From the NCBI GenBank assembly GCA_037447655.1, contig JBBHKE010001907.1, positions 189,125 through 253,124 of the forward strand: a stretch of 64,000 nt of DNA. The letters run 5' to 3'. Positions within the stretch are counted from its first letter, which is position 1; every line of letters starts with the position of its first letter. The DNA comes from Zygnema cylindricum (Eukaryota > Streptophyta > Zygnematophyceae > Zygnematales > Zygnemataceae). Shown piece after piece: positions 1-55,884 of this stretch. Both the position numbers and the translations under genes were made by a program. The notes beneath the pieces are model-generated. The model saw only the letters and a list, made by a program, of their open reading frames with translations. It ran no database searches and was not told where the DNA came from.

Positions 1-2702
1 AAGATGAGTCTACAAGTCAGTCGGGATCTGAGGATGATGACGAGGGAGAAGAGGGAGAAGAAGGAGAGGAGGATGAGGCAGGAGAAGGAGAGCACGACGC
101 CCCCCCTGGAGTGGCACCGCAAGAATGGGTGAGTTACACATAACTGATGTTTGTGAAGGGGGGAGATTTATAAGCATTTCTTATGCACATAAATGGTCAT
201 AAAGGCTCAAATTTATTGAGTTTTCCTGTTTTAGGTTTTTCTTTTATGATTTGGGTTTTTTGAAAATGTGGGCAGAATCAGTTAAGTTTGTTGAAAAGGA
301 TGAAACATGTTCAGGCTCTTAGAAGTGTCAAAACTCACACTAATTGTGGTATGAACGCTAAGCATGTACAAGGTAACAGCCTCTTTCTCTCTCTTGCTTT
401 CTCACAGCAGTGGTGATTCGGGGGGGGGAAGGGAAGGGAAAGGCTGATTTTATGGGAGGAAATAGAATGTGATTCCTACCCTGTTTCTGTGTCTCTCAAA
501 AAACAGAACCTGTGTTGCGTAAGTGTTATCATGTTATTTAGTGGTGTGGATATCGATATGGATTGAAAATACTTCTAGTGAAAATCATGCTATTCCATGA
601 ACAGATGGAGGTCTTAACATGGGTTTTCGAGTCTTGTGAGATGAAATTCACTCTGTGAGTTGTTAAGAGAGTTTTTGTCTTTTGGTTACGAAAGGGTAGA
701 GTACTGTTAAAGTCTATATGTTGTTTCCACAAGTTATTGTTATTGTGTTGAGCCGTAGAAAAATCATTTTCTTTAGAGCTGATAGGGGGTTTGTGTCTAA
801 CCCTTTTACTGGCTTTTTATGTGCTCCATTCCATACTTGCTTTTTTCCCCCCTAAAAAAAAGTGAAACAAAAAAGTGAAAAAGTGAATACCTTCTCCTTT
901 TTGTTTCCTCGTAGAAAAGCAGAATGGGAGAGGTCAAAGAAAAAACTGGTTTTGTCAGTCCAAATTGGAAAGAATGGGGTCCACTAATTCAAATTAAGGG
1001 TTCATGTCGGTCCACCCTGGAACAAAAAATACTTAAAACGAATCAATGGATACGGCTTTCCGAGCACCGACTTTGTTGTTCTTGGAAGTTCTCGGAAAAC
1101 CGTACAATAGAACTTCCTCAAAATATTTGAGGATATTGAAGTCGGGTTAAGGTTGCGTCTTTCTTTGAAACAAGCCAACGGTAAACCCAAAAGCTGACCA
1201 AGCAAAAACAACATCCGAACAGCTATTTCATTGTTTTCGCGCGAAAAAACTGCCCAACTTGGCGGCGGAAGGGAAGAGGGGGATGTATTAGTAAGTTTGA
1301 AAAACTGCAGGTTTGTTTTCACGCCTATGTTTGATGACGTCGAAGCGTGTGACGTGTCACAGGTCACCTTCAATCGGAATTACCCGTTTTCCAATGAGTT
1401 TGGGCAAATTCATCGGAATGGGCAAAAAGTTATAAATGCTTTGGTGGAAATAGGCCAGATAGATAATTAAAATTAAGGGTTCATGTCGGTCCACCCTGGA
1501 ACAAAAAATACTTAAAACGAATCAATAGATGCAGTTTTCTTATTCACCTCTCCTCTCCCTCTCTCTCTTCCCTCTCTTTCAGCAGATTGCAGAAAAACCC
1601 TCTCTCCCACCTCCCCCTCCTCCCCCTCTCCTGCCTACCAATGGTGCCCCATCCAGCAGCTCTACCTCTCCCTCTCCCACTATCCCTCCTCCTCCTCCTC
1701 GGCGTCCTCCCCCTCCTCCTCCACGCCCCACAGGCCTACCTCCACCCCCTCCAGCCCGTCCGCCTCCTCCCACTCCTCCCCTTGGTCGTCCCCCTTTTAT
1801 GCACTCTATCCCGGGTCCTCCTCCGAGGGATGGCCCTCATGCTGCCCCTATGGGAATGAGACCTCCTCCGGGACCTCCTCCCCTCCCTCTCTCCTCTCAG
1901 TCTCGATCAGAAGGCTCCTCTTTTGGGCCACCTGGCATGGCTCCTCCCCCTGGCCCTCCCCCTCGGACAGGTTTACCGCCTCCTCTCTCTCATCCCAACA
2001 CACATCCTGGACCTCCTCCTCCTCCTGGGATGCGTCCACCTCCTGGGCCGCCACCTGGCGCTCCTTTGTCTGCTTCTGGAAACGTGATAGGTGGTGATGG
2101 GAAACCGTCTTATATTAAAGTTGCAGCTCCGACTGTTGTTAAACGGCCCCTTGCTCATCATATACCAGAATTGACAGCCATGGTATGTTAAAAGTTCAAT
2201 TTTTCTTTGGTTTTTCCTCTTCGGGGATGGTTTGAGGAATTTTCAATTACTGAAAAGCTGGCATTGTTATCTCTTACGGTTGTTTATCTCTTAGGCTTGT
2301 TGTATGGCCTGTTTTATCACATTCGATTTTGTGACATTTTGGAAACAAATGTTATTGGAACACAACCAGTGTGTGGTTCCATAACCAGTGTGTAGTTCAA
2401 CTTTGTGTTTTTGACATGTTCTGAGCTTATTTTGTGACCGACTTTGTGATATTTTGCGACCAATGTTGTGCCATTTTCTGGTCCATTTTGTGACATGTTG
2501 TCTCCTCTGTTGGCAGGTTCCCGCGTCCGTGCGAGTGAGAAGGGAGATCGCCTCTAAGGCGAAACCAAAAGTGGTGGCTCCCACACCAGCATCTGTCGGG
2601 ACAAAATCGTCTTTATCGGGAGTAAAGCCGGCGAGTTTGGACGAATCATATTCTGCTTTCTTGGAAGATTTGAAAGATCTTGGAGCATTTGATGAAGGTT
2701 AA
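1..2702 (+). CDS. WBP11/ELF5-like splicing-associated protein, C-terminal exons (5' end outside window)
   Basis: Three exons can be read: 1-128 (partial), 1583-2182 and 2517-2702; all junctions are GT-AG, phase 0. The first encodes an acidic tract ([20 protein letters not shown]) ending in QEW. The second is about 200 codons of proline-rich sequence with repeated PPPGPPP blocks, the PGR-type ligands of WW/GYF domains. The last encodes [10 protein letters not shown] and ends in a helical [18 protein letters not shown] tail. Acidic stretch, then PGR repeats, then a conserved (P)(A/T)S(V/L)RV(R/K)R motif plus a short FxxxxxxL tail is the order in WBP11 (animals) and ELF5 (plants), nuclear proteins tied to pre-mRNA splicing; function here is inferred from that family. 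The 129-1582 intron carries a repeat insertion. The N-terminal half lies upstream of the window. Confidence 0.85.
991..1526 (+). repeat. Repeat 'X' copy 1 flanked by 57-bp direct repeats, in the WBP11 intron
   Basis: A core of about 411 bp (1051-1461) starts with a small hairpin (TACGGCTTTCCGAG pairing with CTCGGAAAACCGTA) and is nearly identical to 4011-4422. It is bracketed by two identical 57-bp direct repeats, 991-1047 and 1470-1526 (both run from AAATTAAGGG to AACGAATCAAT). The second repeat sits only about 55 bp before the splice acceptor of the proline-rich exon. No protein-coding capacity is visible. Confidence 0.8.
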
Positions 2703-3605
2703 ATTGATGGGATGTGTTTTTTTTGCGAACCCTTTCCTTTTGGAAGAAGGTTATGGCACGCGGAGTCGCAAAGAGGAGATGACTATGAAGTCACTGGTGT
2801 TTGTTGTAGTTTTTTCCTCGCATAAAAGGAGGTCTTTCAGAAATGATCGTATTCATTTTTTTTTTTTTGGGTTGTAACAAGATTGCAGATTTCGCACAAG
2901 TTTTGGAAGGACAAAAAATTGTCCACTATGTTGTTATTTCCAAAAGTTACATTTTTGAGGGAATTAGTAGAGGTTTAACGAGTTTGAGATATACTCCAAT
3001 CTGTACATTGTGGACAAGGTAGTTGTGGAGATGTTTCAAATATAAGGATGGATGGTGCTAAGAATGTTCCCTGTTTGGAAATAAAGTATAGACAATCATT
3101 GAAAAACAGGGTTGACTGATAACACTGTGGTGGGCACCGGTTGCAACTACCAGTCCGATTGATTTTTATTGAAAAGAAATAGGCAGTAGTATTGCAGCCA
3201 TGTCTAGATTTGTTCTTGTTTCTTTATCACGCCTTGGAAAAACTCTTATTTGTTCCATGTACGGGCAAGTCAATTTTGTCTTTTTTGGATAGCAATCTGC
3301 ACATCAGTAAGGTTACACGTCCATTGTCAGTGCAATAGTATGTGTCTTTGCCGGTTGCTGGGGGGTTTTTCAATTTCAGCTTGTCATTGGCCAGTTTATG
3401 TTTCAAAAAGCAGAGCGAATATACTGCTGGAACTTGACATTCAAATGTATGTACCAGTAGATAAGCTTGCTGGTTCATTTTTTGAAAAACGTACATGTGC
3501 AATATTTTACAATTCATGCAATCTAATCTTATGTTTTCTACTCGTCGTAGGTGATGTTGTTTCGCTTCCAAGTCCAACAAGCAACTATGGATTTCCATAT
3601 ACGCG
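2207..3605 (+). repeat. Segmental duplication, copy 1 (WBP11 last intron, last exon and 3' flank)
   Basis: Sequence from TTGGTTTTTCCTCTTCGGGG onward matches 7261 onward at an offset of 5054 bp with only scattered substitutions and small indels up to about 3558. The match resumes for about 45 bp (TTCCAAGTCCAACAAGCAAC) after a 318-bp stretch present only in copy 2. Confidence 0.9.
3080..3085 (+). terminator. Polyadenylation signal AATAAA of the WBP11-like gene
   Basis: A canonical AATAAA lies 378 bp after the stop codon in the 3' flank. The duplicated downstream copy keeps it at 8134-8139. Confidence 0.5.
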
Positions 3606-7115: not shown

Positions 7116-7125
7116 NNNNNNNNNN
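7116..7125. other. Assembly gap (10 N)
   Basis: Ten N bases. Their round number suggests a scaffold join of unknown true length. Confidence 0.99.
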
Positions 7126-7260
7126 GGAATCTCCGCTAGAGGGAAGAGTGAGCGTGCCTGCGCCCTTGGACGGTTGTCTTCTCTGTTGTACAGTGCTTTA
7201 CCTGGTCTTTTACCGTGTTGTAACCAGCGTTTTATAGTGTTTTAGCCAGTGTTTTGTGTT

Positions 7261-8978
7261 TTGGTTTTTCCTCTTCGGGGATGGTTTGAGGAATTTTCAA
7301 TTACTGAAAAGCTGGCATTGTTATCTCTTACGGTTGTTTATCTCTTAGGCTTGTTGTATGGCCTGTTTTATCACATTCGATTTTGTGACATTTTGGAAAC
7401 AAATGTTATTGGAACACAACCAGTGTGTGGTTCCATAGCCAATGTGTAGTTCAACTTTGTGTTTTTGACATATTCTGAGCTTATTTTGTGACCGATTTTG
7501 TGATATTTTGCGACCAATGTTGTGCCATTTTCTGGTCCATTTCGTGACATGTTGTCTCTTCTGTTGGCAGGTTCCCGCGTCCGTGCGAGTGAGAAGGGAG
7601 ATCGCCTCTAAGGCGAAACCAAAAGTAGTGGCTCCCACACCAGCATCTGTCGGGACAAAATCGTCTTTATCGGGAGTAAAGCCGGCGAGTTTGGACGAAT
7701 CATATTCTGCTTTCTTGGAAGATTTGAAAGATCTTGGAGCATTTGATGAAGGTTAAATTGATGGGATGTGTTTTTTATGCGAACCCTTTCCTTTTGGAAG
7801 AAGGTTATGGCACGCGGAGTCGCAAAGAGGAGATGACTATGAAGTCACTGGTGTTTGTTGTAGTTTTTTCCTCGCATAAAAGGAGGGCTTTCAGAAATGA
7901 TCGTATTCATTTTATTCTTTTTTGGTTGTAACAAGATTGCAGATTGTCGCACAAGTTTTGGAAGGACAAAAAATTGTCCACTATGTTGTTATTTCCAAAA
8001 GTTACCTGTTTGAGGGAATTAGTAGAGGTTTAACGAGTTTGAGATATACTCCAATCTGTACATTGTGGACAAGGTAGTTATGGAGATGTTTCAAATAAAG
8101 GGTGGATGGTGCTAAGAATGTTCCCTGTTTGGAAATAAACTATAGACAATCATTGAAAAACCGGGTTGACCGAGAACATTGTGGTGGGCACCGGTTGCGA
8201 CTACCGGTCCGATTGATTTTTATTGAAAAGAAATAGGCAGTAGTATTGCAGCCGTGTCTAGATTTGGTCTTGTTTCTTTATCTCGCCTTGAAAAACTCTT
8301 GTTTGTTCCATGTACGGGCAAGTCAATTTTGTCTTTTTTGGATAGCAATCTGCACATTAGTAAGGTTACACTTCCATTGTCAGTGCAATAGTATGTGTCT
8401 TTGCCGGTTGCTGGGGGGTGTTTCAATTTCAGCTTGTCAATGGCCAGTTTATGTTTCAAAAAGCAGAGCGAATATACTGCTGAAACTTGGCATTCAAATG
8501 TAGGTACCAGTAGATAAGCTTGCTGGTTCATTTTTTTAAAAAACGTACATGTGCAATATTTTACAATTCATGCAAATCTAAACTTATGTTTTCTACTTGT
8601 CGTATGTGATGTTGTCTCTATGTTATGCTCTTATTGGCTTCCTACAAGGTTAAGGGATAAGAGACTTCCAAGGCTGACAAACAGGATAGATAAAAGAAAG
8701 AAAAAATTATACAACTTACATTAAGAATGTGTGATGGTGCAAGAAGTAGGAGAGGCAAAATGAAAGGAAACTTACAGCACGTGTACTAACAGAGGACGTC
8801 ACTGTTCATCAGTGGATTTAGTTCAACAATTGCTAAAGTGGTCCATTTTAGATAGTGTCTTGACACGAAAGATCGATACAGTTGTACATATCAGTAGAAT
8901 TAATCCCTTCACGCTTAAACATCATTTTTTTTGCTTCCAAGTCCAACAAGCAACTATGGATTTCCATACGATTTGAGC
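7261..8978 (+). repeat. Segmental duplication, copy 2
   Basis: Matches 2207-3605. 7261-8612 aligns almost continuously, 8613-8929 is extra sequence, and 8930-8978 resumes the match. The proline-rich exon and everything upstream of 2207 are not duplicated. Confidence 0.9.
7571..7756 (+). pseudogene. Duplicated last exon of the WBP11-like gene
   Basis: Encodes exactly the same 61 residues and stop as the genuine last exon (2517-2702); I see one synonymous change (GTG to GTA). It has an acceptor AG (TTGGCAG) and the same downstream AATAAA, but no acidic or proline-rich exon lies between 3.6 and 7.2 kb, so on its own it cannot make the protein. It could be a recent partial duplication, a second haplotype wrongly placed in tandem, or an alternative terminal exon. 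Confidence 0.75.
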
Positions 8979-27600: not shown

Positions 27601-30600
27601 TTTACTTGTTTCAGTACTATCGCCTACACCAACCACACAGTTCTTCCAGAGGCTCTGGAGAAGTGGCCATTGGACCTCATCAAGAAGTTGATGCCCCGCC
27701 ACTTGGAGATCATTGAGAAAATTGATGAACAGGTTTGTCCTCATTTATTCCTAGAATCAGTTTTCTTAGTCTCACCATGATTCCTTTACCCTTTCTGTAC
27801 TGCAATTTTTCTAGGTGTCAGTGTTTGACTCTTTCTTGCAATGTGATTTAAGTTTACTAGGCCCAGCATCTAGCTGATTGTTTGGAGCTCATCAATTGTC
27901 TTTTTGTGTTCTGTTGTTACAGTTCATCGAAGAGCTTGTTGCCTCATTGGGATCTGCTGAGAAAGAGGTGGTCTTGGCCAAAATTGAAAGCATGCGGGTG
28001 CTTGAGAATGTTGAGCTACCGGAGAGCGTGAAGTCTAAATTCGCTATTGCAGAGCCTGCAAAGGCTCTCGCGGAACTCGAGACAGAGGAAGAAGTGAAAC
28101 CCAAAAAGGAGGAGAAGAAAAAGCCAGGCTTGATTCGAATGGCTAACTTGGCAGTTATTGAGGGACATGCTGTGAATGGAGTGGCTGAGATCCACAGTGA
28201 AATTGTTAAGGATGAAGTCTTCAATGATTTCTACCAGGTCTGTTTGATTGTTTCATTTTATTTTTCCTAGAGCTTGTCTAGTTTCTTAGTCAAAATTCCC
28301 TGCGTTTTTTTTTTATCTGCATGTGGTTACGCCTCACCTGTTTTGTTAATTTCGTTCAGGATGCTCTTTTGCTAAGCTTTGAACTGTTGATTATCACTGT
28401 ATTGTTGCAGTTATGGCCAGAGAAGTTCCAAAACAAGACAAATGGTGTTACTCCAAGACGCTGGATGAGCTTCTGTAATCCAGAAATGAGCAAAGTCATC
28501 ACTAAGTGGCTCGGAACTGAGGACTGGGTATTGAACGCAGATCTGTTGGCTGGCTTGAAGGAGGTACGGTTTAAGACTTTTTCATTGCGTTATTGCATTT
28601 GCTCCAAAGTTAAATTGTCGGCATGTTTTACTCTTGTTTTGCTCTCGAGGTTTGTCTGATTGTCTACTCCTCTATTTGCAGTTTGCGGACAACAAGGAGT
28701 TCAAGGCTGAATGGGTAGCTGCAAAAGTGGCCCGCAAGGAAATTCTTGCAACCTACTTGAAGGAGAAAACAGGATATGAAGTCAACAAGAACGCCCTCTT
28801 TGACATTCAGGTAATCACTCCTTCTGACATATCTTTTGCAGTTCTGAATGTTTGAGTGACTTCACGACTCACTTCAACTAAGGCTATTTCTTGTAGGTAG
28901 GCTTACGTTTCATTTTATCCGTCTAAGCCTACCAGTGTTTCTAGGAGATTTTTCAATGTTCTTGCTGTCGGTCTTCGCAGAAGCTTGGCTCATTGTAAAT
29001 GCATAGTGCTAATTAATTTAAGTGACTTTTCACCCGAATTTTTCAATATCTTAGGTCTTTTTCTTTTTTGAAACCTCAGCTCTTAATCAGCCCAGATGTT
29101 ATTTCTAGAAATGTAGATCAAGTGGCGGAGTATTTCAGTCCATCTTTCTGAGCCTCTTGTCTTTCCAGCGGGGCTAGTTAAAGAGTTTTGAGCAATTTCA
29201 AGGCATTGTTTCTGTTGATGTCGTCACATTTGTTAGTTCAAATTTGATTGCTGAGCTTTTTTCTCTTGTGGCTTTTTTTTAGGAGTTGATTACATTGTTG
29301 ATTTAGACTGTTTGGCTTGAAATAAATAGACTGTGACTGCATTTTCCTCTTGACACTAATTTTTAACCAAAACTATTCTGGGTTTGTTTTGATGCAGGTT
29401 AAGCGTATACATGAGTACAAGAGACAACTCTTGAATATTATGGGTATCATTTACCGTTATAAGAAGATGAAGGAGCTTTCACCTGAGGAGAGGAAAGCCA
29501 AATATGTTCCCAGAGTGTGTTTGTTCGGAGGCAAGGCATTTGCTACATACTGGCAGGCTAAGCGAATTGTTAAACTTATTACAGATGTTGGGCGATTAGT
29601 GAACAACGACCCAGAAATTGGGGATTTGTTGAAGGTGAGCTATTTTGTTTGAAGGAGGTATCTTGAGGCATTGGCCTGCATGTGTGCCAAAGTAGGTAAC
29701 CTCAGTTTGAAAATCAGTTTGATATGGAGGAGGAGGAGGTCACTTAATGCAATTTTTTTACTTTGCAGGTTATTTTTGTCCCTGACTACAATGTCAGTGT
29801 GGCGGAGGTTTTGATTCCTGCAAGTGAGCTGTCTCAGCACATCAGGTACAACATCTGACCCCATGCTTTTTGTTATTGAAGAGTCTGAATTTCAAAGAAT
29901 GCACATCATGCATCAGATTGTGCATGGTAAATCGTAATAATTTTTTGTTGATGAATTATTAATTTCAAAGAATGCACCTCGTATGTCAGATTGTGCATTG
30001 TAAATGGTAGTAACTGAATGAAAGTAACTAGGGCTTTTGTTCTAGCCATTTGACGGTGCTGCTCTTTTCTTGTCCATTGCAGTACTGCTGGTATGGAAGC
30101 GAGTGGTACAAGCAACATGAAGTTTTCCATGAATGGATGTATTTTGATCGGAACCCTCGATGGTGCCAATGTGGAGATCCGAGAAGAAGTTGGAGAAGAT
30201 AACTTTTTCCTATTTGGAGCTTACGCAAATGAGATTGCAGGTCTTCGAGTAGCACGATCTAAGGGCGAGGTAAGGGTCATCTTGATGCTGTTCCTTTTTG
30301 GTGGATGGTGTCTGGTGGCCACTAACAGCTTTTTCATTTGGATGAGGTAGACCTCCTAAATCAGGAATCAAGATATGGTCCATCCAGGCTGTTTTATGCT
30401 ATCAATGCCAGATGCTGTAAGACTCCTATGTTCATGATTATTGATTCAAACAGGGTGAAATGGACATGATTTCTGATGCATGATATACTGTGTGTTTCCT
30501 TTGGTACAGTTTGTCCCTGATCCACGATTTGAGGAGGTGAAGGAGTACATTAGGTCAGGTGTGTTTGGGGAATACGACTACAATGAATTATTGGGTTCCT

Positions 30601-30959
30601 TGGAAGGCAATGAGGGCTTTGGCCGTGGTGACTATTTTCTTGTCGGTTACGACTTCCCAGCCTACATTGAGTGCCAGGACAAGGTTGACGAGGCCTACAG
30701 AGATCAAGAGGTGGGTTGCTCTTATTCAGTAACAAGAACTGTACTACATTCTTTGAAGATTTGCTTTTATAAGAATCGCACTTTCGTAAAATTGTGTTTC
30801 CTGGTTTCTGATGTGAGGTTATCTGTTGATTGTGATTAACAGGCTTGGACACGATCTTCTATTTTGAACACAGCAAATTCCGGAAAGTTTAGCAGTGATC
30901 GAACTATTCACCAGTATGCCAATGAGATTTGGGGCATCTCGCCATCCCCAGTTGCGTGA
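24673..30959 (+). CDS. PHS1: Plastidial alpha-1,4-glucan phosphorylase (Pho1 type)
   Basis: Seventeen exons: 24673-24901, 25286-25509, 25672-25773, 25916-26092, 26192-26328, 26488-26611, 26830-26922, 27208-27389, 27615-27732, 27923-28237, 28411-28563, 28682-28810, 29398-29634, 29769-29845, 30083-30269, 30510-30710, 30843-30959. All introns are GT-AG and phases agree; the sum is 2802 nt, 933 residues. The enzyme reversibly transfers glucose between glucan and glucose-1-phosphate with pyridoxal phosphate. Seen: Ser-rich leader (about 1-70, likely transit peptide), [44 protein letters not shown], and [14 protein letters not shown] with the PLP lysine near K779. A charged Glu/Lys insertion (about residues 480-525) splits the catalytic core, marking the plastid Pho1 form; it is shorter than in many seed plants. 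No frame break seen. Confidence 0.95.
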
Positions 30960-42859: not shown

Positions 42860-43412
42860 TTGGGATCTATACGTAGTGGTGGAACTTTCCGTTCATCAAA
42901 TTTCGATCAATCGAATTTAACAAATTCGGTTCCTTTCATGTTAAGTCCTTTAATTAAATCTAGAGCGTCCTCTACTCGTCCAGATTTAACCCCCGTATCA
43001 TCTTTGTCATACATTCTTTCCACGCTATCTGTGGAAGAGGTTGATAACGAAAGGGAACCCGATTCATATTCCCTTTCTTTTTGGTCTCCGTTAGCACCGA
43101 TCCAGGCTTTCAATTCAGCTTACTCGTCTCTTCCAATGGCCTTCACAGCGGAGGGTCCTCCTGGTAAACTTCAATTCTGCTTTTCCAGAATGAAGGATAC
43201 TATGAGTTTATCTCATTTTTGAATGCTATTGGACACTAAAATGCGATATCTAGCTTTTTGTTATCAAGACAGGTTAGACATGCGTGTCACTCTCTCCCTT
43301 CTCGAGCGCTATCTTTGCGGTTCCGCCCTTACCTTATATTCCTGAGTGTATGATTGCATACTTACAATGACTAAATATTCTCCACAGTTTGTTAGTACGC
43401 CTGAGGTCATGG
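42860..43412 (+). pseudogene. LTR-retroelement gag-like remnant, truncated by copia A
   Basis: Encodes coding-like residues typical of plant gag capsid regions (PPGKLQFCFSRMKDTMSLSH, then after a stop MRYLAFCYQD and VTLSLLERYLCGSALTLYS). It is cut at 43412 by the LTR of element A. The assignment rests on the capsid-like pattern only. Confidence 0.35.
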
Positions 43413-44409
43413 TGTTGAAAATCACTAGATTTATAGGATATTTTCTAGGTCTAAAATAAAAAAAAAGAGTAGGCAGCTTGCTTTCACCTTTCCTCTCTAT
43501 CCCCCATATTTGTTGTAGTCATTGAAGGAGAGAGAGAGAAAGAGAAGGGAAACCATGGCTGCCTCGGCCTAATAAGCAGGATTGAAGAGTGACTTATATC
43601 ACTCTAAATAAAAGGTTCGATTTCGGCAAGACTCAAACCACCGACCGGTAGAGCGAGGCATAGTCGTCACCCCTAACCAGTTTGCCATGGAAGTTCGTTG
43701 AAGTATATAGGGTATGATTAATATTTAAACTATGTTACGGTCAATAAACCGATTAACAAAAATACAAATGAAACAACATAGAACCTGTTATATAGAGTGC
43801 GAATATAATACTGCACGGAACAAATGAATCGGACATTTGTTTCGGCGGTCAATATTGAATGCCGATTTTTATCCAACGGCGCACATCATCGCCGAGATCT
43901 CGGAATGGTCACTTTGGCGTTTTATGACGTGGCATGACTTTACGCCACGTGGAGAGATAACATTTGGTTGTGGGAATTACGAGGACTTTACGGACGAGTG
44001 AAAAGTGGACACGCGTCTCCTTAATAGCCTTGTCGTACAAAGGCCATACAGAAAATACATCGGCAGAAGTACTTTTTTGTACTGTATAGTGATATTATCG
44101 GTTCCTACAATCAATAGATAGGGGTTGTAAGAGGGAACTAGGACTTAGAATAATTTGGTAGGTAGTCCTCTCTCTCTTTGAGAGTTTGTATAAATTGGCA
44201 TCATTGCCACCCTATAACTATTCGCCTGGTTGGGCTTTTTCAATGATTCATTTTTGTACGGGCTTATGGAAGTCTAGGCCGCACCAGGGTGCAATCATAT
44301 TGACTACTTGTCTGCTTAGGCAGCAGTGGTTGCCATTGGAATTGGGTTGGTTAGCAATTATCTAGAGGCATCTTGAATTTTGTAGTCCAATAGAGGACAC
44401 AGAATTGCA
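43413..44409 (+). repeat. 5' LTR of copia element A
   Basis: 997 bp, TG...CA ends. Shared landmarks with element C (opposite orientation): AGCCATGGCT, the AGAGTGACTTATATCACTCT imperfect palindrome, the tRNA-like segment, and the end next to GGTTATGGGCCCACC. Confidence 0.8.
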
Positions 44410-44424
44410 GGTTATGGGCCCACC
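44410..44424 (+). promoter_or_regulatory. Primer-binding site of element A (half-tRNA iMet type)
   Basis: GGTTATGGGCCCACC directly follows the LTR end AATTGCA. Confidence 0.7.
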
Positions 44425-45074
44425 CTCTAGGGTGCCCATCTTCAATAGATCACGGTTCATCTATTGGGAAGCCATGATAAGAGGGGCTTTGTGCGAAAAA
44501 TGATACTGGGGTATTGTTAGTGGACAAATGAAACGTCATCCTCAAGGAACTTCACCAGGGTTCGGTGGAGTAAGGTTTATTGCAGCAGCATTTGCTGTAG
44601 CACAAGAGGCAGATGATGGAGACAGCAACATCTCTGAAATGGGGAAAGAAAAGGAGACACCTCTTGCTCCCATTGCTCCTATTTCCACGGGATCTGGAGC
44701 GGGGGATCGTGAAGAACACAGAGAACGACACCCAAATGTGGGAAGACACCAACATGGCTGCCAAAAACGTCATTCTGAGACACCTCACTCGAGCTTTGGC
44801 AACTCCTCATCTTCACGTTTACAAGGTCGAGGAGTTGTGGGTGAGTTTAATACAGATCTATAGAGCTGGTACAATTCAGGAGCTCCAGTTGGCAAAGAAA
44901 AAGTTGGGAAATTATACTTATAAAGGAGGAAAGATGTTAGACTATTGTAATGATCTTTCTTGTCTATATATGGAGATGGAGAGTGCCCAATGGACACGTA
45001 CAATGAAAATGAAAGCTAACACTGTCATCAAGAAGTTACTTGACGAGTATGAGAACATAGTGTACCGAGTACAG
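44415..45074 (+). pseudogene. Gag remnant of copia element A, N-terminal part
   Basis: Reads from the ATG inside the primer-binding site (MGPPSRVP). It carries an in-frame TGA at CEK*YWGIVSGQ and frame changes, and continues through the helical region (YKGGKMLDYCNDLSCLYMEM, ENIVYRVQE). The frame is cut at 45074 by element B and resumes at 47583. Confidence 0.8.
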
Positions 45075-45079
45075 GAAAT

Positions 45080-45672
45080 TGAAATTATATGAGCTCCATT
45101 ACCACACAGAATTCGCAGGTCCAAAGGAAGCTAATCTAGATGGTGCCGACTCCAAGTTAATAGAAACCCAAATGATTGACCCCTTGACAATCAGAACCCC
45201 ATTACAGCTTCACCCCTGTGAAATAAGACTTTCTGTGTGCTCAGTTTCACTACAGAATGCAAAGTTAGAATATGAGTTTAGGATAACATTCCCCACTTTG
45301 ACTTTCCCTTAGAAATGCAGCCACCCAGGCAAGCAAAAACTCTGACCGACTACACCCCTGTGTAGCTTAGACTCCCCTGAGTCCGCAGCAAAAAGAATCA
45401 CTGAATTTGGTCAACTGAATTGATAGTTATGGCTGGCCAAAGTTTGCCATTTATACAAGGTGCTCTCTGGGAGAGGCAGCTACCTACCAAAAATATTCTA
45501 AGTTCTAAACCCCTCTCTAAACCCTCTAGTACTGAGGTACGGACCAATCGCATTACTGTATAGTACATAAAGGTACAAATGCCGGTGTACCTTCTGTACG
45601 GTCATCGTACGACACGGCTAAAAAGTCAACACATGTTTTATCCGGATTCGCTCTTGTAATCCCCGGAATTCC
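45080..45672 (-). repeat. 3' LTR of element B, truncated
   Basis: Aligns with 46270-46863 at high identity, from TGAAATTATATGAGCTCC, and breaks off after CCGGAATTCC where gag sequence joins directly. Confidence 0.85.
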
Positions 45673-46289
45673 CCTCAACATATAACGCAGCAATATCATT
45701 GCAAAACCTCTGTCATGCTACCGCCTTTATAAACATAGGCCTCTATCTCTTGTCTTACTAATTGCTGCCTCTGTATAGTCTCACTCTTATAAATCTGAAT
45801 TAGTGTGTCCCAAATTTCTGTAGACTTGGTTAGATTTAAAAGAGTGATAGCTATAGACTTAGACACATATCTAAGTATGAGATGTTTTGCTATAGTGTTT
45901 TTATATTCCCAAATTTTTTTATCATTTTCTTCTGTTTTTGGTTCAGTTATAACCCCCACAAGTGGAACCGTAGCCGAGAGCCTAGCTCCCCTCACCATAG
46001 GTGTCCCTTTATCCTTCTCCCCTATTTCCCCTTCCACGGTAATGATTTTCCCTTCACCTTCCGTTGCATCTGAACTCCGGTTGGTTTTCTGGGCAGCCCC
46101 AGATGATTCTCCATAGTGAGCTCCACCAAAGCCAGGTGGCGGACACCTCACTTGTCCCGAAACAATTCCCCACAAGTGCTTCTCGAAAAGCAATCCCTCC
46201 ATCGTGAACTCCCAATAAGTGAAGTCTGTTCCATCGAACATAGGCACCCTAGATGGTGGGCCCATAACCTGAAATTCTATGGGCTCCAT
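45673..46289 (-). pseudogene. Gag fragment of element B
   Basis: Minus-strand frame encodes the copia gag N-terminal region (QVMGPPSRVPMFDGTDFTYW, EKHLWGIVSGQVR, ETIQRQQLVRQEIEAYVYKG), then a frameshift near 45700 followed by the deletion. An in-frame ATG lies within the LTR end, upstream of the ATG in the primer-binding site. It is more diverged from A and C than they are from each other. Confidence 0.8.
46255..46269 (-). promoter_or_regulatory. Primer-binding site of element B (half-tRNA iMet type)
   Basis: GGTTATGGGCCCACC on the element strand, immediately after the LTR, complementary to the anticodon arm of initiator tRNA-Met (see findings). Confidence 0.7.
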
Positions 46290-47577
46290 TACCACACAGA
46301 ATTCGCAGGTCCAAAGGAAGCTAATCTAGATAGTGCCGAATCCAAGTTAATATAAACCCAAATGATTGACCCCTTGACAATCAGAACCCCATTACAGCTT
46401 CACCCCTGTGAAATAAGACTTTCTGTGTGCTCAGTTTCACTACAGAATGCAAAGTTAGAATATGAGTTTAGGATAACATTCCCCACTTTGACTTTCCCTT
46501 AGAAATGCAGCCACCCAGGCAGGCAAAAACTCTGACCGACTACACCCTTCTGTAGCGTGGACTCCCCTGAGTCCGCAGCAACAAGAATCACTGAATTTGG
46601 TCAACTGAATTGTTAGTTATGGCTGGCCAAAGTTTGCCATTTATACAAGGTGCTCTCTGGGAGAGTCAGCTACCTACCCGAAATATTCTAAGTCCTAAAC
46701 CCCTCTCTAAACCCTCTAGTACTGAGGTACGGACCAATCACATTACTGTATAGTACATAAAGGTACAAATGCCGGTGTACCTTTTGTACGGACATCGTAC
46801 GACATGGCTAATAAGTCAACAAATGTCATATCCGGATTCGCTCTTGAATTCTCCGGAATTCCTGCCTCCAAATCTTATCTCTCCACGTGGCGCCAGGTCA
46901 TGCCGCGTCAGAAAACGATACCGTACAGGAAAGTACAAGTGCCGGAGTACTTTTTGTACGTACATTGTACGATGTCGCCATAGTGAGACATTTGTCACTC
47001 CCGGATTTGTTTTCTGCCGTTCCGGAAATTCCGTAATCCCGTACGATGTTGCCATGTGTCATCCAGAGTGGCGGCGTCTGCAAACTGCCAAATTTTCTTT
47101 TCCGCGATGTCGGCGCTTACCACGGCCGTCCGATTTACATTGTAACTAAAACGGACCGTCGAAATAAATGTCCGTACTATTTATTTCGTCCGGTGCTAAA
47201 AGTACAACTGTTTCTATGCCCTGAATACCGTAATCCAGTTAAATGGAATTCCCTACCTGTAACTATATAAATATCTATCAAACCCTATATGTACTAGCAC
47301 TAGTCCTAGACTAAATGGACAAAGCTAACGACTACGGGACGGTTCACCGACGGTAGGTACCAAGATCAATTCCTAGGTCGGTCAAATACCATTTTGGTAA
47401 ACATACCTATATTATCTATTCGTGTCTCTCTGGAGAGCTTAGGCAGCCATGGCTCTAGCTCCCTCTCCAGCCTTCGGTGACTACGACAAGTGTGGGGGCT
47501 TGGAGAAGGGAGTCAGGGCAGACTGCCTCTACTCTTTCCTATCTAATAAAGACCTAGAAAATACCCAAATATCAACA
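46270..47577 (-). repeat. 5' LTR of element B (1308 bp)
   Basis: Plus-strand ends TGAAATTCTATGGGC and ATATCAACA; TG...CA in both readings. Next to the primer-binding site at 46255-46269. Confidence 0.88.
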
Positions 47578-47582
47578 GAAAT

Positions 47583-48390
47583 GACTAATAGTTCATGGAA
47601 GTGGAATAAAGTGGTTTGCATGATACTTGTGCAAGTGAACACGATTGAGTTCAAGAGAGGGGGAAAGAGCGTGCAAGCTCTAGCCGCCGGGGGGGACAGG
47701 TGAAGACAAGACCCAAAAAAACCATACAAAGGAGAAAGAGTTTAGCCTGGAGGACGAAGCCCCTTAAGGGCCTTTGTCATTTTTGCAGAAAGCCGGGACA
47801 CTTTATCGCGGATTGTGTCAAGCTGTCGGAGCTGAGGCTCCAAGAGAACCGTGCAGGGGGTTTTTCCGGAGGCGGAGGGAAGAAAAAATCACTTATGGTC
47901 ACAAAAGTGACAGGAGAAACCGAGGACGAGTCCTCTTAGGAGGATACGGAGCTTCTTCTTGACGAGAGTATTGGAGGAGAAGAAGATCCATCGGAGACAA
48001 AAGTGTGCCCTTGGAGCAATTCGGGAAGCTCCATAGGAGGGATAGATCATCGACTCAGGTGCATCCATGCATATGTGTCGTGACAACGACCTCTTCACTA
48101 AGCTAAAGAAAATCCCTACTATAGAAATAGAGTATGGGGATGGGAGAGTGGTTACTACAGATCTAGTGGGATCTATAGATTTGAAAATCTTAGTGGAGGG
48201 TAAGACTTCTATACTCACTTTCTCAGATGTGCTCTTTATTCCTTAGTTGAGTTAAAATCTTGTCTCTACATCTGTGTCAGAAGAGAAAGAGTTTGATACC
48301 TTCATTAGAAAGGGAGTCTTTACAGCTAAGTATGGATATGAAGTTTACTCCACTGCAGATAAATGAAGCGAAGGAATGTTTAGGCCCAAC
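47583..48390 (+). pseudogene. Gag C-terminus and protease remnant of element A
   Basis: Resumes exactly where B interrupts (SSWKWNKVVCMILVQ). It contains the CCHC zinc knuckle CHFCRKPGHFIADC (47765-47820), the ETEDES acidic linker, and a protease-like DSGASMHMCRDN near 48055. Several stops and shifts make it non-functional. Confidence 0.8.
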
Positions 48391-48513
48391 TAGTTCCACC
48401 TGATTCAAATTTCGCGATGGAAGGAAGTCCACCTATACCATCATGGTATGCTGTCCACACATCTTTGACCGTGTGTAGTCCAGCTCCAATTTGTGTCATT
48501 TAAAATACTTGAA
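48391..48513. other. Junction between truncated copia A and the Crypton-like gene
   Basis: Homology to copia stops near 48390; no TG...CA end or target duplication is seen. Confidence 0.5.
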
Positions 48514-51500
48514 TTAAGTTTTCTTGCGATAGAAAAAGACGTGGAAATTTTTCAGTTGTCCTTGTCGTTTTACAGGGGTTTCATGTTCTTTGTCTTCACC
48601 TCGAGGAAGATTTCGTTCTGGAGTCCAAATTCCCATAGCTGATTCATTTTTTGATGATATATTTTGATTTTCAAAAGGTTGTGTTCCATGCAATGGATCT
48701 TCGTGAACGTTCACCATGTGCATAATGCGGGTTAACTTGTCATCTATATTACAAAATTTATCTTTCAAGCTTGAAAGTGTCTCTTTTACATAAGACATTT
48801 CCTGTCCCATATAATCAATTTTTTTTCCACAGGTTTCACTCCACATGAATAGCGAATCAACTGATTTTCCCACTTGTGAAATTGTAATCGGCACATTTGC
48901 TTCGGCATCAACAATTGAAGCCCACATGTTTGATGCTTCATGACACATTTTTTTGACTTCGTCTTTGAACGATGACCACAAACGAGATTCGAACAGTTTG
49001 TGCTTGAAGATAGGAAGATCTAGAAATAAATCTTGGAAAAAATCATGGTCATGTAAAAACACACTTTTGAGCCATAACATGGTGTGAAGGAATTTTTTTG
49101 TGCTTAAATCTCTTTCAGATTTAGAACCTCGAGCATTTTTTTGCACAAAAAAACATTTGTATGTTTTAAAAGAAGAATAATCCATTAAGTATAAAACAAC
49201 AACCAAAAAGATAATACATTAAATATATATAAAAAATTATGTATATATATATATTAAATATGTAAGAAAAAAATGTGATAGAAAGAGAAAAAAATAAAAA
49301 AATAAAAAGATATTAAGAGGGAAAGAAAAAAAAAAACAATTAAAGGAAAAACAAATTACCCAAAAAACATGTAAAAAAAAACATAGAAACAGAAAACAAT
49401 TTAAAAAATAAAAAAATAATTGAAAAGACAAAAAAATGAAAATAAACAAAAAACAACAAAAAAAAATCAAAATAAGTGATACAAGAAAAAAAATAGAATA
49501 ATATAAAAAAAAATGCGACGAACATAAAACACCAACTATTACTTAACACAAAAAGTAATGATATAAATGGTGAGAGTTTTTATAAACATACCGTTGGCAA
49601 CTCAACATATGCCATTTCGACCCATGGCCAAATTATAGCACAAAGAGTAGCAAGGGGTTTCACTCTCGAACGAGGTAGAAAATATTTTCTGGTGTTGTTT
49701 TCGTGGCCAAAAGCTTGAAGTAGAATGTCCGTTGGCAAATCCGTGACATATGCGTATGAAAAGTGGTCGGATGTCCAACGTCCATCACTTTGATGGCTTC
49801 TTGATCAGCACTGAAATATTTACCATAAAAGAAATCAAAAAATTTGGAAAATTAGAACATAAATAACAAAACTTTATTATTTCAAATAAATGCATGATAA
49901 AAATTAAATGGTAAGTTTACGAAAACGCACCCTCTTGTTGCCAACATCGTTGCTCCTTAACCACGTCCGGCATGGGTTTTATGAGACAAGGAAATATTTT
50001 TGGTTTGAAATGTTTTTTTTATATATTGAAACTGTGTATTATAGCAAAGAGGTTGCATGAACAGTGTTTATTTTCTTTCTTGGTCTTTGGCTAAAACTCC
50101 CCTTTCCGTGAAAGGCTCACGGTACCAGGTTTCTTTCGTCGAAATTTTTTGGAATTGCATTTTTATTTGTAGCTAATTCCCACCTCCAAAAAAAATGTTG
50201 GGCCAAAGCACCTACCGGACAAACAAGAAGGTCTAAGCATGCATTTGATAAATTCCGCACGACCATTATGCGGTTAAAAAATACCATAAAAAAACAGAAA
50301 AAAATAGTAAAATTTGTTTTAGGGTTATGTACAAAACATTACAAAATACACATTTCGTTAAATCTTCAGCTTTATACATTACTTACCACATTAGTTTTCC
50401 CATTTCTTGTAACCATCGCCAAAACATAACCTTTGTCCGACCCAAGATAAGGAAGATCATTCGAAAAAAACATTCGCTAACTGAGCATTTATCAAATCAT
50501 CGCCTCGATTGAGACATGCATGGTTCATGAAAATTGACTCCTACAAAAAACAAAAACAAAACATCAAAGAGACAAAAAATGGCAATGTTACAAACATAAT
50601 TGGAGCTTTATTTAAAAGAATGTATATTTTCTCCCAAAAACAAAAATTGCATATAATTTTCGTCTTTGCTTTAAATAGACTTTGGAGTTAACTTCTTAAA
50701 ACTCTTTGAATCTCGAAAAAACATATTAAAGAAAATGTAATGCAAAGTCAAAAATTAAATTCTAAAGCCTAATATAACTAAATTGGATAAGAATCTCAAA
50801 AAAAATGCACCCTATAAAATAAAGTGTTAAGTAAAAAACAACATGAATCAAAAAAATGAAATATAAAATTTAGTATTTTTATCGATACATACCTCACTTG
50901 AATGCTGGTGTAGGGTTCCATCCCCAACTTTTTTTCTTTTTGCTTTCTTTCAGCCAACTCCAACCAAAATGTTGAAAACCCTTTGTAATATTCGAGAGAA
51001 TACGCTTCTCGTATGCCTTCTTGACGGTCTTCATGGTTTTTTTTTTTTTAATTTTATGTATTTTTTTTGGACTCTTGTAAAAGTTTTTGGATGATATTGT
51101 TGTCTCTAAGATTTTCACCCCCCTCCTTTTATGGCTAATTGCGTTTTATACGAGTCTTTGAGTCCTTTCACCCATTGTATGAGTGTGGTATAACTTTTAT
51201 TTTTGTTATTCTCCAATAGTCCAATAACCACATCAAGTGTAATAGCTACATTTGGGTGCCCTTGTGCACTCCAAAATTTTTTATACTAATTTAAACCAAC
51301 TTGATAAGCTTTTTCTGTGTTTGGGTTACGTTGTTTTAATGTATCTTTGATGATCCGTGCTCTATCTGTTTCACTATATTGTGGAGGGTTTTTTATTCCT
51401 ACATTGCTATCGTCATCTTCTAAATGAACAATTTTTTGACAGTTTCCAAATGTGAGCCCTGTGACAATACTAGGTAAAATTTGAAAAATTCCCATACGCC

Positions 51501-51546
51501 AAAAAAACATTGAAAATAAAAATTTTATGAAGAAAAAAAAAATCAT
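48514..51546 (-). pseudogene. Crypton/Ndc10-type tyrosine recombinase gene, multi-exon, decayed
   Basis: Read on the minus strand. 51546-about 51130: SAM-like N-terminal part (NPNTEKAYQVGLN, stop, YKKFWSAQGHPNV, TLIQWVKGLKDSYKTQ). About 51030-50898: EYYKGFSTFWLELAERKQK. 50540-50387: NHACLNRGDDLINAQLANV, frameshift, VLAMVTRNGKTNV. About 50275-50070: CPVGALAQHFFWRWE, frameshift, TWYREPFTERGVLAKDQ. About 50010-49931: KTHAGRG, stop, GATMLATRG. 49810-49592: GRWTSDHFSYAYVTDLPTDI and PRSRVKPLATLCAIIWPWVE. 49206-48514: FLHTMLWLKSVFLHDHDFFQ and DLPIFKHKLFESRLW plus a coiled C-terminus. These motifs in this order are those of the Ndc10/CBF3-domain tyrosine recombinases of Crypton transposons. Most exon edges are GT-AG. 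At least two stops and three frameshifts. Confidence 0.75.
49207..49591. other. AT-rich intron-like spacer in the Crypton-like gene
   Basis: Almost pure A/T, starting on the minus strand with donor-like GTATGTTTAT at 49591. The A-rich composition produces spurious Phe-rich open frames. Confidence 0.6.
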
Positions 51547-51680
51547 AATAAAAAGAAAATAATAAGAAAAACCTTTAAAAAGTTTAATTTAAAATAAAGG
51601 TGTTGAAAGAAAAACAAGTAAAGAAATAAAAAAGATTAAATTAAAAAAGTAAAATAAAAACAAAAACTCCAACACAAAGT

Positions 51681-51840
51681 TGTAGGATTTAGGGTTAGGC
51701 TGTACGATTTATGGTTAGGCTGTAGGATTTAGGGTTAGGCTGTAAGATTTAGGTTTAGGTTGTAGGATTTAGAGTTAGGCTGTAAGATTTAGGGTTAGGC
51801 TGTAGGATTTAGGGTTAGGCTGTAGGATTTAGGGTTAGGC
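51681..51840. repeat. 20-bp minisatellite with telomere-like core (8 units)
   Basis: Eight tandem 20-bp units of TGTAGGATTTAGGGTTAGGC with few substitutions. Each holds TTTAGGGTTAGG, close to the plant telomere repeat TTTAGGG. Confidence 0.95.
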
Positions 51841-52778
51841 TGATTTAGCTGTTGGTTTTAACACTAAATACATTAAAACGTAAATCAAAACCTATGGTTA
51901 AAGCGCACGTTATAAATAGATTAACGTACGTCCATATTTATTTACGTTTTAAAACAATACAATTTGAAACATAATCATTTGCGATACATACTGAAAAAAA
52001 ATGGTTCACATTTGAGTGTACGAAATTCGTGGGGAGGGTTAATGTACATTGGAGAGTACATTGCGTACGGAATTCGCGCGGAGAGGTAATTTACATTGGA
52101 GAGTACGGAATTCAATTTTACCACGTACGGACGTCAGCGAGGAGAGTTAATCTACATTGAAAAGTACGGAATTTCACTTTCGACCGTATGGAATATGATA
52201 AATAACGTCACATTTTGGAGTAAGTAAATAGTACACGCGGATTTGTCCTGTACTTTTTAAAATTTGAATATACATACCTTCTCCGCTTTCAAAATACCTT
52301 CTTCTCCTTTCAAAATACTACTTCAATGATGACTGTAGGATATTTTTACACTCTCCGCGTATGATCCTCATTTCACGTAGCGTAGTAAAAAAAAAAATCG
52401 CCTGCGACGCCAAAAGACGACAATATGACTGTACTTTTTTTTGTTTGTAATGTCATACGTAAAGTATTATCCCGTGACGCGCGACTCAGTTGTTTGACGG
52501 ATTAAATGGTAGTGCTTAAAGTGTGAACGTTTTTAATATTATGTAGATATTTTGAGTCGCGAACGCGATTTACATGTTCTCATGCGACGCGCGTGACGCT
52601 ATTTGTGGTGAATGCTCTATATGAGAACGTTGTTAGTATGAACACTTTGTTCTTTTTTTGTATTTTTTTGTCCATCTGACCTAATCAGCGAGGAGACTCC
52701 TAAAAAAAAAAAAATTGCGCTTGTCCTTATCAATAACTAGGAGGGATTTACATTGCCCGGGCGAAATCCTCCTCGAAG
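51841..52778. other. Intergenic region, GTAC-rich repeats
   Basis: 52000-52200 holds degenerate repeats of TACATTGGAGAGTACGGAATTC. No coding sequence is seen. Confidence 0.5.
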
Positions 52779-53188
52779 TAGTGTTGGGTATCGGGTAAAT
52801 TCATATCGCGATAATTTCGATATTCGATATATCGAATATCGATTGAGCAGATTCCTCGATATATCGTACCGGGACCAACATAAATTATCGCGATATATAT
52901 CGCAAAATCTGGGTGTCCGTACAGTCCTAGTACGAAAAGTCATACGGTGATCGTACGGAAAATCGTACGGACCCCCCCCCTCCCGTGGCGCGCGCTTAGT
53001 GGGGGGGGGGAGGGGCAAAAGGTTTTCCGTACGGTTTTCCGTACTGTATTTGTAGGGACATCCAAATTCTACTAAATGTATCGCGATATAATATTCTGGT
53101 CCCGATAGGATATAACGTGGCCTTTGACCGATCGATAATCGATATGTCGAACTTATTGCGATATGATTTTATCCGATACCCAACATCA
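52779..53188. mobile_element. TIR element with dense TATCGATA-type palindromes, copy 1
   Basis: Ends TAGTGTTGGGTATCGG and CCGATACCCAACATCA are near-perfect inverted repeats, similar in form to the 11997-type hAT termini. The interior is filled with CGATATATCG words. 52805-52975 is practically identical to 55004-55178. Confidence 0.65.
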
Positions 53189-54508
53189 GAAAATGGTATA
53201 ATCCACGGCAGTGGTCGCAAACATCCAACCGAAACCGTGACCCACCGTTAACCGACCGCCCGTGCCGGATCCGAAACAGATTCGGTTGCCAAATTTTGGG
53301 GCCGGGCCGTCGCAGTCGGTTGATTCACCAGAAAAAAAAAAGTCGGTTACGGTGTCAAGCAAAAAACGAAAACATGAAAACTTTGTACTGTTCATACAAT
53401 CCAACATTATTGTACTTTGTACTCTTTGTTATCGTGGAAGTACATGACATCATGATTAGCGTCGCAAATCTGACACGTTAGTAACACTTCATTTCGCAAA
53501 TCTTAAGGAACCCGACAAATCGTAATTATTGGCTTATTCATACGTCGTCAAAAACTAAGATTTTTTTTGTACTTTTTCGGTTACGGGCGGGTACGGTTTG
53601 TCGCGAGAAATCGAGTTTCGGTTAACTTTTATTTTCGTAAACGACGGTCGTTTAATGGTTATCAATTTTGGAGCGTGACATAACCCGGTCGGGCGTCGGT
53701 TACTCAGATTTTGAAAAAAAAAACGGTCGGTTTCGGTTATGTAAAATTTTGACTTTTGCGACCTCTGATCCACGGCGGACGAGGGATGACGACCTCACAA
53801 TTGGCAAAAGCCACATGCCTTCGTACAGGGCGGATTTAAAGTACAAATTTAATTTTCATTTTGAAAAGGATTTCGAAACGGTTGGTACAACGAAATGATA
53901 AGAACGTACACATTATAATCTGCTTTCATCCGTACATGCGCCGTTCAGATTTTGTGCCTTTCGAATCTTTTAATATTCTTCTTGGCTGGTTGAGCTGGAT
54001 CTTACGTGGTTCCAATCGCAATGAAGTACGTAACCAAGAAGTGCCTTGCTGGCACGACCTAATGGAGAAGTGATACAAATATTGCTGCCAGTGTCGATTA
54101 ATGGAAACGCCAGATGGACCACTGCCCTTATTTTCCCAAATGGAACTACGAAAAACTGACGCGCGCATAGAAATTTTTCTGTACGGATATTGCGGGCTGA
54201 TGAACTGAAAATATTCGTCTGGAATAGTTCGTATTATTTTTGACACGCGGCATTTTACGTACGGAATAGTGGAATTCCCATCGGAACGTAATGCAGCATG
54301 TTCTGCTGTCGGGACGCTAGAAGTTAAGCGTCGCACCGGGAAAGCTAAGCGTTTACAATTACAGGGTGGTTATGCTACAGTATTGTAGCAGAAGCGACAG
54401 AAAAACGCATTGCAGTAAGTTTCCTTGTAAGTGTCACCTAAGAAAGGACAAATCGATTTACAGTACTAAGGAAATCTGTAGATAATCTTAACATGTCGGA
54501 TTTCATAG
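53189..54508. other. Intergenic region, no gene recognised
   Basis: Short open frames only. CGGTTACGG/GTCGGTT words are frequent at 53220-53760. Confidence 0.45.
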
Positions 54509-54733: not shown

Positions 54734-54977
54734 CCTGAGGGAGGAACCGTGAAGAACACCTAAAAAGTAAAAACCAACCAGAATAACGGCATTTTATTTT
54801 CGTAATATCTATTATGCACTTCATTTTACGTTTTATTTAATTTGAAGAGTCTGCGTTTTGGAACATAATTGGTTAACTCAGAATCTGTGTCAATGCCTTG
54901 AAACAAAACAAAAGATTGCACTAAAGATTCGAATATCTTGTTAAGATACGATCTCAAGTAATATGAAGCAAATATTG

Positions 54978-55342
54978 TAGTGTTGGGTATCGGGTGGTGT
55001 CATATCGCGATAATTTCGATATTCGATATATCGAATATCGATTGAGCAGATTCCTCGATATATCGTACCGGGACCAACATAAATTATCGCGATATATATC
55101 GCAAAATCTGGGTGTCCGTACAGTCCTAGTACGAAAAGTCATACGGTGATCGTACGGAAAATCGTACGGACCCCCCCCCCCGGCGCGCTTAGTGGGGGGG
55201 GTTGATTTTAAATGCCTCGATATATTGGCGATATATCGGGATGGTTTGGTTTTCGATATATCGAAGCGATATATCGATTATTGGGTTCCTGAAATTCGAT
55301 ATACATTGAATATCGGCAAAAGGTCCTCGATACCCAACACTA
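54978..55342. mobile_element. TIR element with dense TATCGATA-type palindromes, copy 2
   Basis: Ends TAGTGTTGGGTATCGG and CGATACCCAACACTA. Its left half equals copy 1 at 52779; its right half differs. Its last two bases TA are shared with the next MITE. Confidence 0.7.
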
Positions 55343-55884
55343 CACCGCGCATCGTTATTAGTGTCAACGACACTAATTTGGGTTCATAAAATTTTGATTT
55401 TTTTCCTCAAATAGGATACATGATTTTAATTTTTCCTTGACGTTAATTAAGGTACCGTACAAAATAGCGTAAAGTATGAAAGTACACTAAAATTTAAATA
55501 GTATGGTGTACGGTCTATGTCAGACCGTACATAAATGTACCTCTTCAAGTGAAAATTTACAAAATATGAATTAAATCAGACGCGCACTCATAGGAACGTG
55601 CGCTCAAAAAAACGTGATTAGTCTGACACGTAAATTACTATAGCATGTACGAATATTTTAGATTCGCGACGGCGTACGATTTCCAATATTTTGTAAAAGT
55701 ACATATATTAATGTATATAATCGTACGGCGAATATTCCATTTTTGCTGTTCCCAAATTAGCATAAACGCCGAAATTAGAATAAACCTTTTTTTTGAAAAA
55801 TTCCAAATTCTTCATTAGCATCAATTACGGTAAATTTTCTTCAACACTATTTAAAATTTGACACTAATAACGATTTGCGGTGTA
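55341..55884. mobile_element. Stowaway-like element, long form (544 bp)
   Basis: 27-bp inverted termini with two mismatches: TACACCGCGCATCGTTATTAG... left and ...CTAATAACGATTTGCGGTGTA right. TA at both edges fits Tc1/mariner-type duplication. No transposase ORF. Confidence 0.75.

Follow-up and report, generated by a model that had tools for sequence, protein, structure and literature searches.

The window analysed here is a stretch of 64,000 nucleotides of Zygnema cylindricum DNA, located on contig C1430. On its minus strand, at 48386-52778, lies a truncated Crypton copy that corresponds to positions 57-4646 of L016, a 6916-bp element on another contig of the same assembly. The aligned pieces of L016 are 87.7-92.2% identical to the window copy. 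Six elements (L010, L014, L016, L018, L019 and L021) align in pieces from 52778 down to 48386, and L023 does so from 52777. Measured against L016, the copy has lost about 56 bp on the left and about 2.3 kb on the right.

The copy contains the remnants of five exons, all on the minus strand. The first, at 50893-51510, is homologous to exon 1 of the open genes in L016 and L014; it encodes the N-terminal part in a broken frame and has a weak Phage_int_SAM_1 match (E 0.1). Exon 2 (50387-50540) carries the motif HACLNRGDDL with the catalytic arginine, exon 3 (49931-50267) carries CPVGALAQHFFWRWEL and THAGRG with the histidine and the second arginine, and exon 4 (49592-49810) carries GRWTSDHFSYAYVTDLP with the catalytic tyrosine and has a frameshift inside. 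Exon 5 (48386-49140) holds the end of NDC10_II and then, in another frame, the start of GCR1_C, where the copy is cut off. Only this first part of GCR1_C is kept; it was placed at about 48388-48499 by comparison with L016, and there is no Pfam match to it on the window itself. The gene is disabled by frameshifts, stops and the loss of two of the four splice acceptors, those of exons 3 and 5, while the catalytic R, H, R and Y are still readable.

We compared the protein pieces of the window with Pfam. A read-through of all minus-strand pieces, with X at the breaks, matches NDC10_II with 59.1 bits (E 4.9e-16), the curated cut-off being 26.3 bits. Two parts give separate matches at consecutive profile positions, each with a single score below that cut-off: the piece from exon 4, a query of two frames run together (profile 189-261, 2.4e-4), and the C-terminal exon, which is open there and was used unedited (268-313, 2.1e-4). 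DUF3504 is not matched by the window pieces up to an E-value of 1, and an Rfam scan of the window gave nothing at the gathering threshold.

The initial annotation, made from the letters of the window, had proposed a Crypton/Ndc10-type recombinase with GT-AG introns and disabling mutations, and the profile match, the lesions and the open relatives bear this out. Its seven coding patches are replaced by the five exons of the open relatives. The motifs it listed are indeed all on the minus strand, in another order than it gave: the gene order is HACLNRGDDL, RNGKTN, CPVGALAQHFFW, KTHAGRG, GRWTSDHFSYAYVTDLP, PRSRVKP...IWPWVE, and then the C-terminal exon. The profile search of the joined protein and the search for intact copies in the same assembly, both of which it had suggested, were successful. 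The same genome further holds features that it had not described: open copies, elements with defined ends, another family, and a gene-like relative that is catalytically dead.

The copy is enclosed by other repeats. Its 3' cut abuts a truncated Copia retroelement on the plus strand (43412-48387); this element is homologous to the Copia at 58.2-64.0 kb up to a point near 48388. At the 5' cut there is a palindromic repeat (52782-53185), rich in TCGATATATCGA-like stretches, with a second partial copy at 54977-55201. The 5' leader contains a 20-bp minisatellite (51681-51842, minus strand) that is matched by other element copies and includes TTTAGGG, a plant telomere-like sequence. Elsewhere in the window, 2206-3563 and 7260-8618 form a 1.36-kb direct repeat of 96.8% identity, with a 10-N gap (7116-7125) before the second copy. 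As both ends are missing, the window copy should be unable to move by itself.

Open copies and the family in the genome

The window's own assembly (352.8 Mb, 2689 contigs) was searched with the NDC10_II profile. Up to an E-value of 1e-3, at least 60 matches were found on 44 contigs, the decayed exons of the window not being among them, and the same profile had no match in 14 control genomes. No relatives were confirmed among the collections of viral and genome contigs. We sampled 20 loci of about 10 kb and five further short stretches; for 24 of the 44 contigs, the coding part of the matches is thereby covered. All 20 loci match the window protein. Nineteen belong to the family of the window, family A, and one, L009 on contig C623, is distant, with 29-53% identity over its pieces.

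The best pairs of family-A elements are 96.8-97.0% identical over 6.7-6.8 kb; they have the same ends and different flanks. Many states of decay are seen among the copies. A fully open gene is present in two of the 19, L016 (C647) and L014 (C312), and absent from the other 17. Among these 17, the sequence obtained for L012 and L015 is incomplete (that of L015 contains an N run), and the rest carry stops. Four of the five short stretches (L029-L032, on C750, C1027, C423 and C249) form a second family, B, whose protein is about 20-36% identical to those of L016 and L014. In L032 the tetrad motifs of family B can be read as AAGRGNSAR, THAMRGSGAR and SYLTSIP.

Each of the two open genes has five exons separated by GT-AG introns. 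The proteins, 758 amino acids in L016 and 773 in L014, are 87% identical. They match NDC10_II over nearly the whole profile (L016 1.2e-38, 29-313 of 317; L014 3.2e-41, 27-313 of 317) and GCR1_C above its cut-off (2.2e-9 and 1.1e-9, respectively). Phage_integrase is matched below its cut-off (E 0.033 and 0.022), and this match ends at the putative active tyrosine. No DUF3504 is found among their Pfam matches up to an E-value of 0.1, and a PDB sequence search with the recombinase gave no match up to E 1. A single protein is encoded by the open members: its N-terminal part is followed by a tyrosine recombinase of the Ndc10_II type with the R-H-R-Y tetrad, then by a linker and, at the C-terminus, by the DNA-binding domain GCR1_C.

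The putative tetrad of L016 consists of R219, H358, R361 and Y393, with the same residues in L014. It was assigned from the R-H-R-Y motif and the position of the sub-threshold Phage_integrase match. Y393 is kept in 18 of the 18 family-A copies that cover the position, the window copy included. Another residue of the tetrad is lost in L010, L013, L019, L020, L024 and one of the two pieces of L025.

Over 757 codons, L016 and L014 have a dN/dS of 0.187 at a dS of 0.344. Exons 1-4 are 91-96% identical without a single gap, exon 5 is 84.6% identical with 51 gap columns, and the introns are 79-87% identical with 3-145 gap columns. The low dN/dS and the gap-free exons 1-4, next to gapped introns, therefore indicate that selection has acted on the recombinase protein. 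Apart from the recombinase exons, neither strand of L016 contains an ORF longer than 131 amino acids. The GC content of L016 is 40.1 in exons and 20.2 in introns.

Element ends, insertion sites and a head-to-tail junction

Pairwise alignments of different loci share both their start point and their end point. The left end is (A)TACCGTAGTGGTATT, the right end is GAAGCAGTATACC(G), and the flanks differ between copies. Seven elements with both ends are 6.7-8.0 kb long and have a repeat-rich 3' part. In none of the seven are terminal inverted repeats found (1-8 of the 20 end bases match in register); both ends instead carry a short direct repeat, TACC(G). Left ends are present in 10 of the 20 loci and right ends in 14, and four of the ten left ends (L021, L023, L025, L027) deviate from TACC. 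Alignment ends cluster beside TACC with no motif supplied. A pattern search found 83 left ends genome-wide and none with the reversed pattern; the pattern includes TACC, so that core frequencies among the 83 ends, or the 40 sites sampled from them, are biased and not independent evidence.

Empty versions of insertion sites were identified, also in the window. The joined flanks of L016 (311 bases) align continuously, with 84.7% identity, to a host repeat at 55341-55651 on the plus strand, where the target GTACCGTAC is at 55452-55460. Weaker relatives of this repeat in other loci (67-71%) have no intact core. The joined flanks of L019, of whose left side only about 25 bp are covered, match tandem repeats in L027 and at 53281-53505 in the window (minus strand, core TAACG). 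Several units of this tandem repeat have TACCG; others have AACCG, TAATG or TAACG. Among the 40 sampled left ends (L034-L073, of the 83), at least 14 share one position within a single dispersed repeat, and empty copies of that repeat read GTACC/GT in L013 and L023, the slash marking the position, and GTACA/CC in a second L023 copy. Because there are empty sites with a TACC(G) core and recurrent hits at one point of a repeat, we conclude from these comparisons that family A inserts in a site-specific manner, at TACC(G) or very near it.

At locus L074 (C944:5000-14950), a 3.54-kb non-autonomous element is directly followed by a second left end, with one core between them. It shares about 870 bp of the left and about 255 bp of the right part with family A, its interior is unrelated and contains microsatellite sequence, and no recombinase match is found in it. 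The junction reads CGAAGCAGTATACCGTAGTGGTATT, with the 5-bp inverted arms ATACC/GGTAT around GTAGT. This is the single head-to-tail junction in the loci sampled.

These features would fit a cycle of excision and integration. The recombinase would join the two short direct repeats (TACC/G) and release the element as a circle, following the Crypton proposal cited in PMC3212892. The circle junction is predicted to be AGTATACC-GTAGT-GGTATT, i.e. AGTATACCGTAGTGGTATT, and the junction of L074 is identical to it. Recombination of the circle site with a chromosomal TACCG would then leave the element with a single core on either side and without inverted repeats. Family A may still be active today.

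The gene on contig C623

The distant relative L009 (C623:60000-69999) differs from the family-A copies. A splice model of eight exons, all with GT-AG introns, gives 776 amino acids without a placed start codon; the exon edges were chosen by hand with the transposon as guide. The protein matches NDC10_II with 1.1e-33 over positions 27-313 of 317. At the C-terminus it shows homology to the L016 region that holds GCR1_C (33% identity, E 5e-11), and GCR1_C itself is absent from its Pfam listing, as is DUF3504 up to an E-value of 0.1. By alignment, intron positions are common to the gene and the transposon, and two exons have equal lengths (154 and 220 nt). The catalytic histidine is replaced by phenylalanine and the tyrosine by arginine, with both arginines kept.

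The 776 codons contain no stop, compared with a mean of 40.6 and a minimum of 23 in 500 base shuffles, and the silent divergence from the transposon is saturated (pS 0.81-0.84). A search of the gene strand across the 10-kb locus gave no element ends. The GC content is 48.1 in exons and 38.0 in introns, against 40.1 and 20.2 in L016. We reject the idea of a simply decayed copy, since all 776 codons have stayed open while silent divergence has reached saturation. The gene is probably a domesticated recombinase, parallel to Cbf2/Ndc10 and Gcr1; less probably, it belongs to a separate, still mobile lineage. According to Kojima and Jurka (PMC3212892), Cbf2/Ndc10, Gcr1, Msn1 and Hot1 of Saccharomyces are Crypton-derived, and the catalytic site is lost in Cbf2/Ndc10 and Gcr1. 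As in Cbf2 and Gcr1, similarity to the tyrosine recombinase is kept in the C623 protein and the catalytic site is not. Unlike the Saccharomyces genes, it is at a plant locus, has eight modelled exons and still matches NDC10_II over 27-313 of 317.

Classification and significance

Family A has the features of CryptonF: an Ndc10/Crypton-type tyrosine recombinase, R-H-R-Y, GCR1_C, terminal direct repeats of 4-6 bp and no terminal inverted repeats. The CryptonF elements that Kojima and Jurka (2011, PMC3212892) describe from fungi and oomycetes likewise combine the recombinase and GCR1_C in one protein, with the same tetrad, short terminal direct repeats and no inverted ones. They differ from family A in that the latter has a green-plant host, four introns in the gene, the core TACC(G), an element length of 6.7-8.0 kb and a 3' part rich in repeats. 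CryptonA/DUF3504, CryptonS and CryptonI, also elements with a Crypton-type recombinase, are without GCR1_C in the account of PMC3212892, and family A is further set apart from CryptonA/DUF3504 by the absence of a DUF3504 match. By the architecture and ends of its family, the window copy is very probably the dead remnant of a CryptonF-type DNA transposon, a member of a family that resides in the genome of a green plant.

In Fusarium, MarCry is a composite that is moved by another enzyme. The elements could be composites of this kind with TACC as an ordinary target-site duplication, since the repeat by itself does not differ from a 4-bp duplication. We give this reading little credence: L016 has neither terminal inverted repeats nor another long ORF, the core is recurrent, and the single head-to-tail junction has one common core. 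A composite driven by a DDE enzyme is therefore rejected as improbable. Green algae are known to contain retrotransposons of the DIRS/Ngaro type, which also encode a tyrosine recombinase. In Viridiplantae, PMC4157794 records DIRS1-like and PAT-type elements. Beside the recombinase exons, neither strand of L016 has an ORF of the size of a reverse transcriptase, and the elements have NDC10_II with GCR1_C and ends of 4-6 bp, so that this origin is very improbable.

Fungal or oomycete DNA in the assembly could also be suspected, given that CryptonF is described from these groups (PMC3212892) and that PMC4157794 suspects such a contamination in Nasonia. The initial annotation had taken the window for plant DNA and the copy for an old resident, and both views hold. 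The window contig carries exons of a plastid-type starch phosphorylase (27878-30839, plus strand). Among PDB entries, plastid enzymes match it best (4.7e-18, and 5.1e-18 for an entry named chloroplastic/amyloplastic), compared with 4.4e-8 for the first animal enzyme, and a further PDB comparison gave 1.1e-23; the matches 5lr8 and 8r48 are the barley and the potato enzyme. Crypton relatives occur on 44 contigs, the copies are in many states of decay, and the sampled insertions sit in repeats that are also present in the window contig. Contamination is very unlikely, because of the plastid-type phosphorylase and the repeats common to its contig and the Crypton-bearing ones.

Table 1 of PMC3212892 covers animals, fungi and stramenopiles and has no plant; in the same paper, Chlamydomonas appears as a name suffix in the legend of Figure 2, and one passage names a green-algal mitochondrion as the place of a candidate DUF3504 gene. 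For a sample including three plants, the Crypton part of PMC4157794 reports a single Crypton, in Nematostella, besides the suspected contaminant. Tables of plant transposable elements count Cryptons without description, 535 in soybean (PMC8729191) and 'Crypton-H/A' in cherry (PMC10722297); PMC11630846, PMC3537659 and PMC3627910 were also consulted. None of the papers retrieved with 'CryptonF' has a plant topic by title, and Repbase may hold an undescribed plant entry.

For the lineage as a whole, we lean slightly towards a reading in which a green-plant lineage has at least two CryptonF-like families that are mobile through site-specific recombination, with TACCG as the site of family A, and in which a further, catalytically dead CryptonF recombinase, that of C623, has been taken over by the host as a protein that binds DNA, much as Ndc10 and Gcr1 arose in yeasts. 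With open genes, ends, empty sites and a tandem junction, this multi-copy family allows tests of Crypton integration in a plant, and a site-specific recombinase of plant origin that uses a short core could have practical value. A plant Crypton family bears on the spread of Cryptons between kingdoms, and the C623 gene is a candidate second case of domestication like that of Ndc10 and Gcr1.
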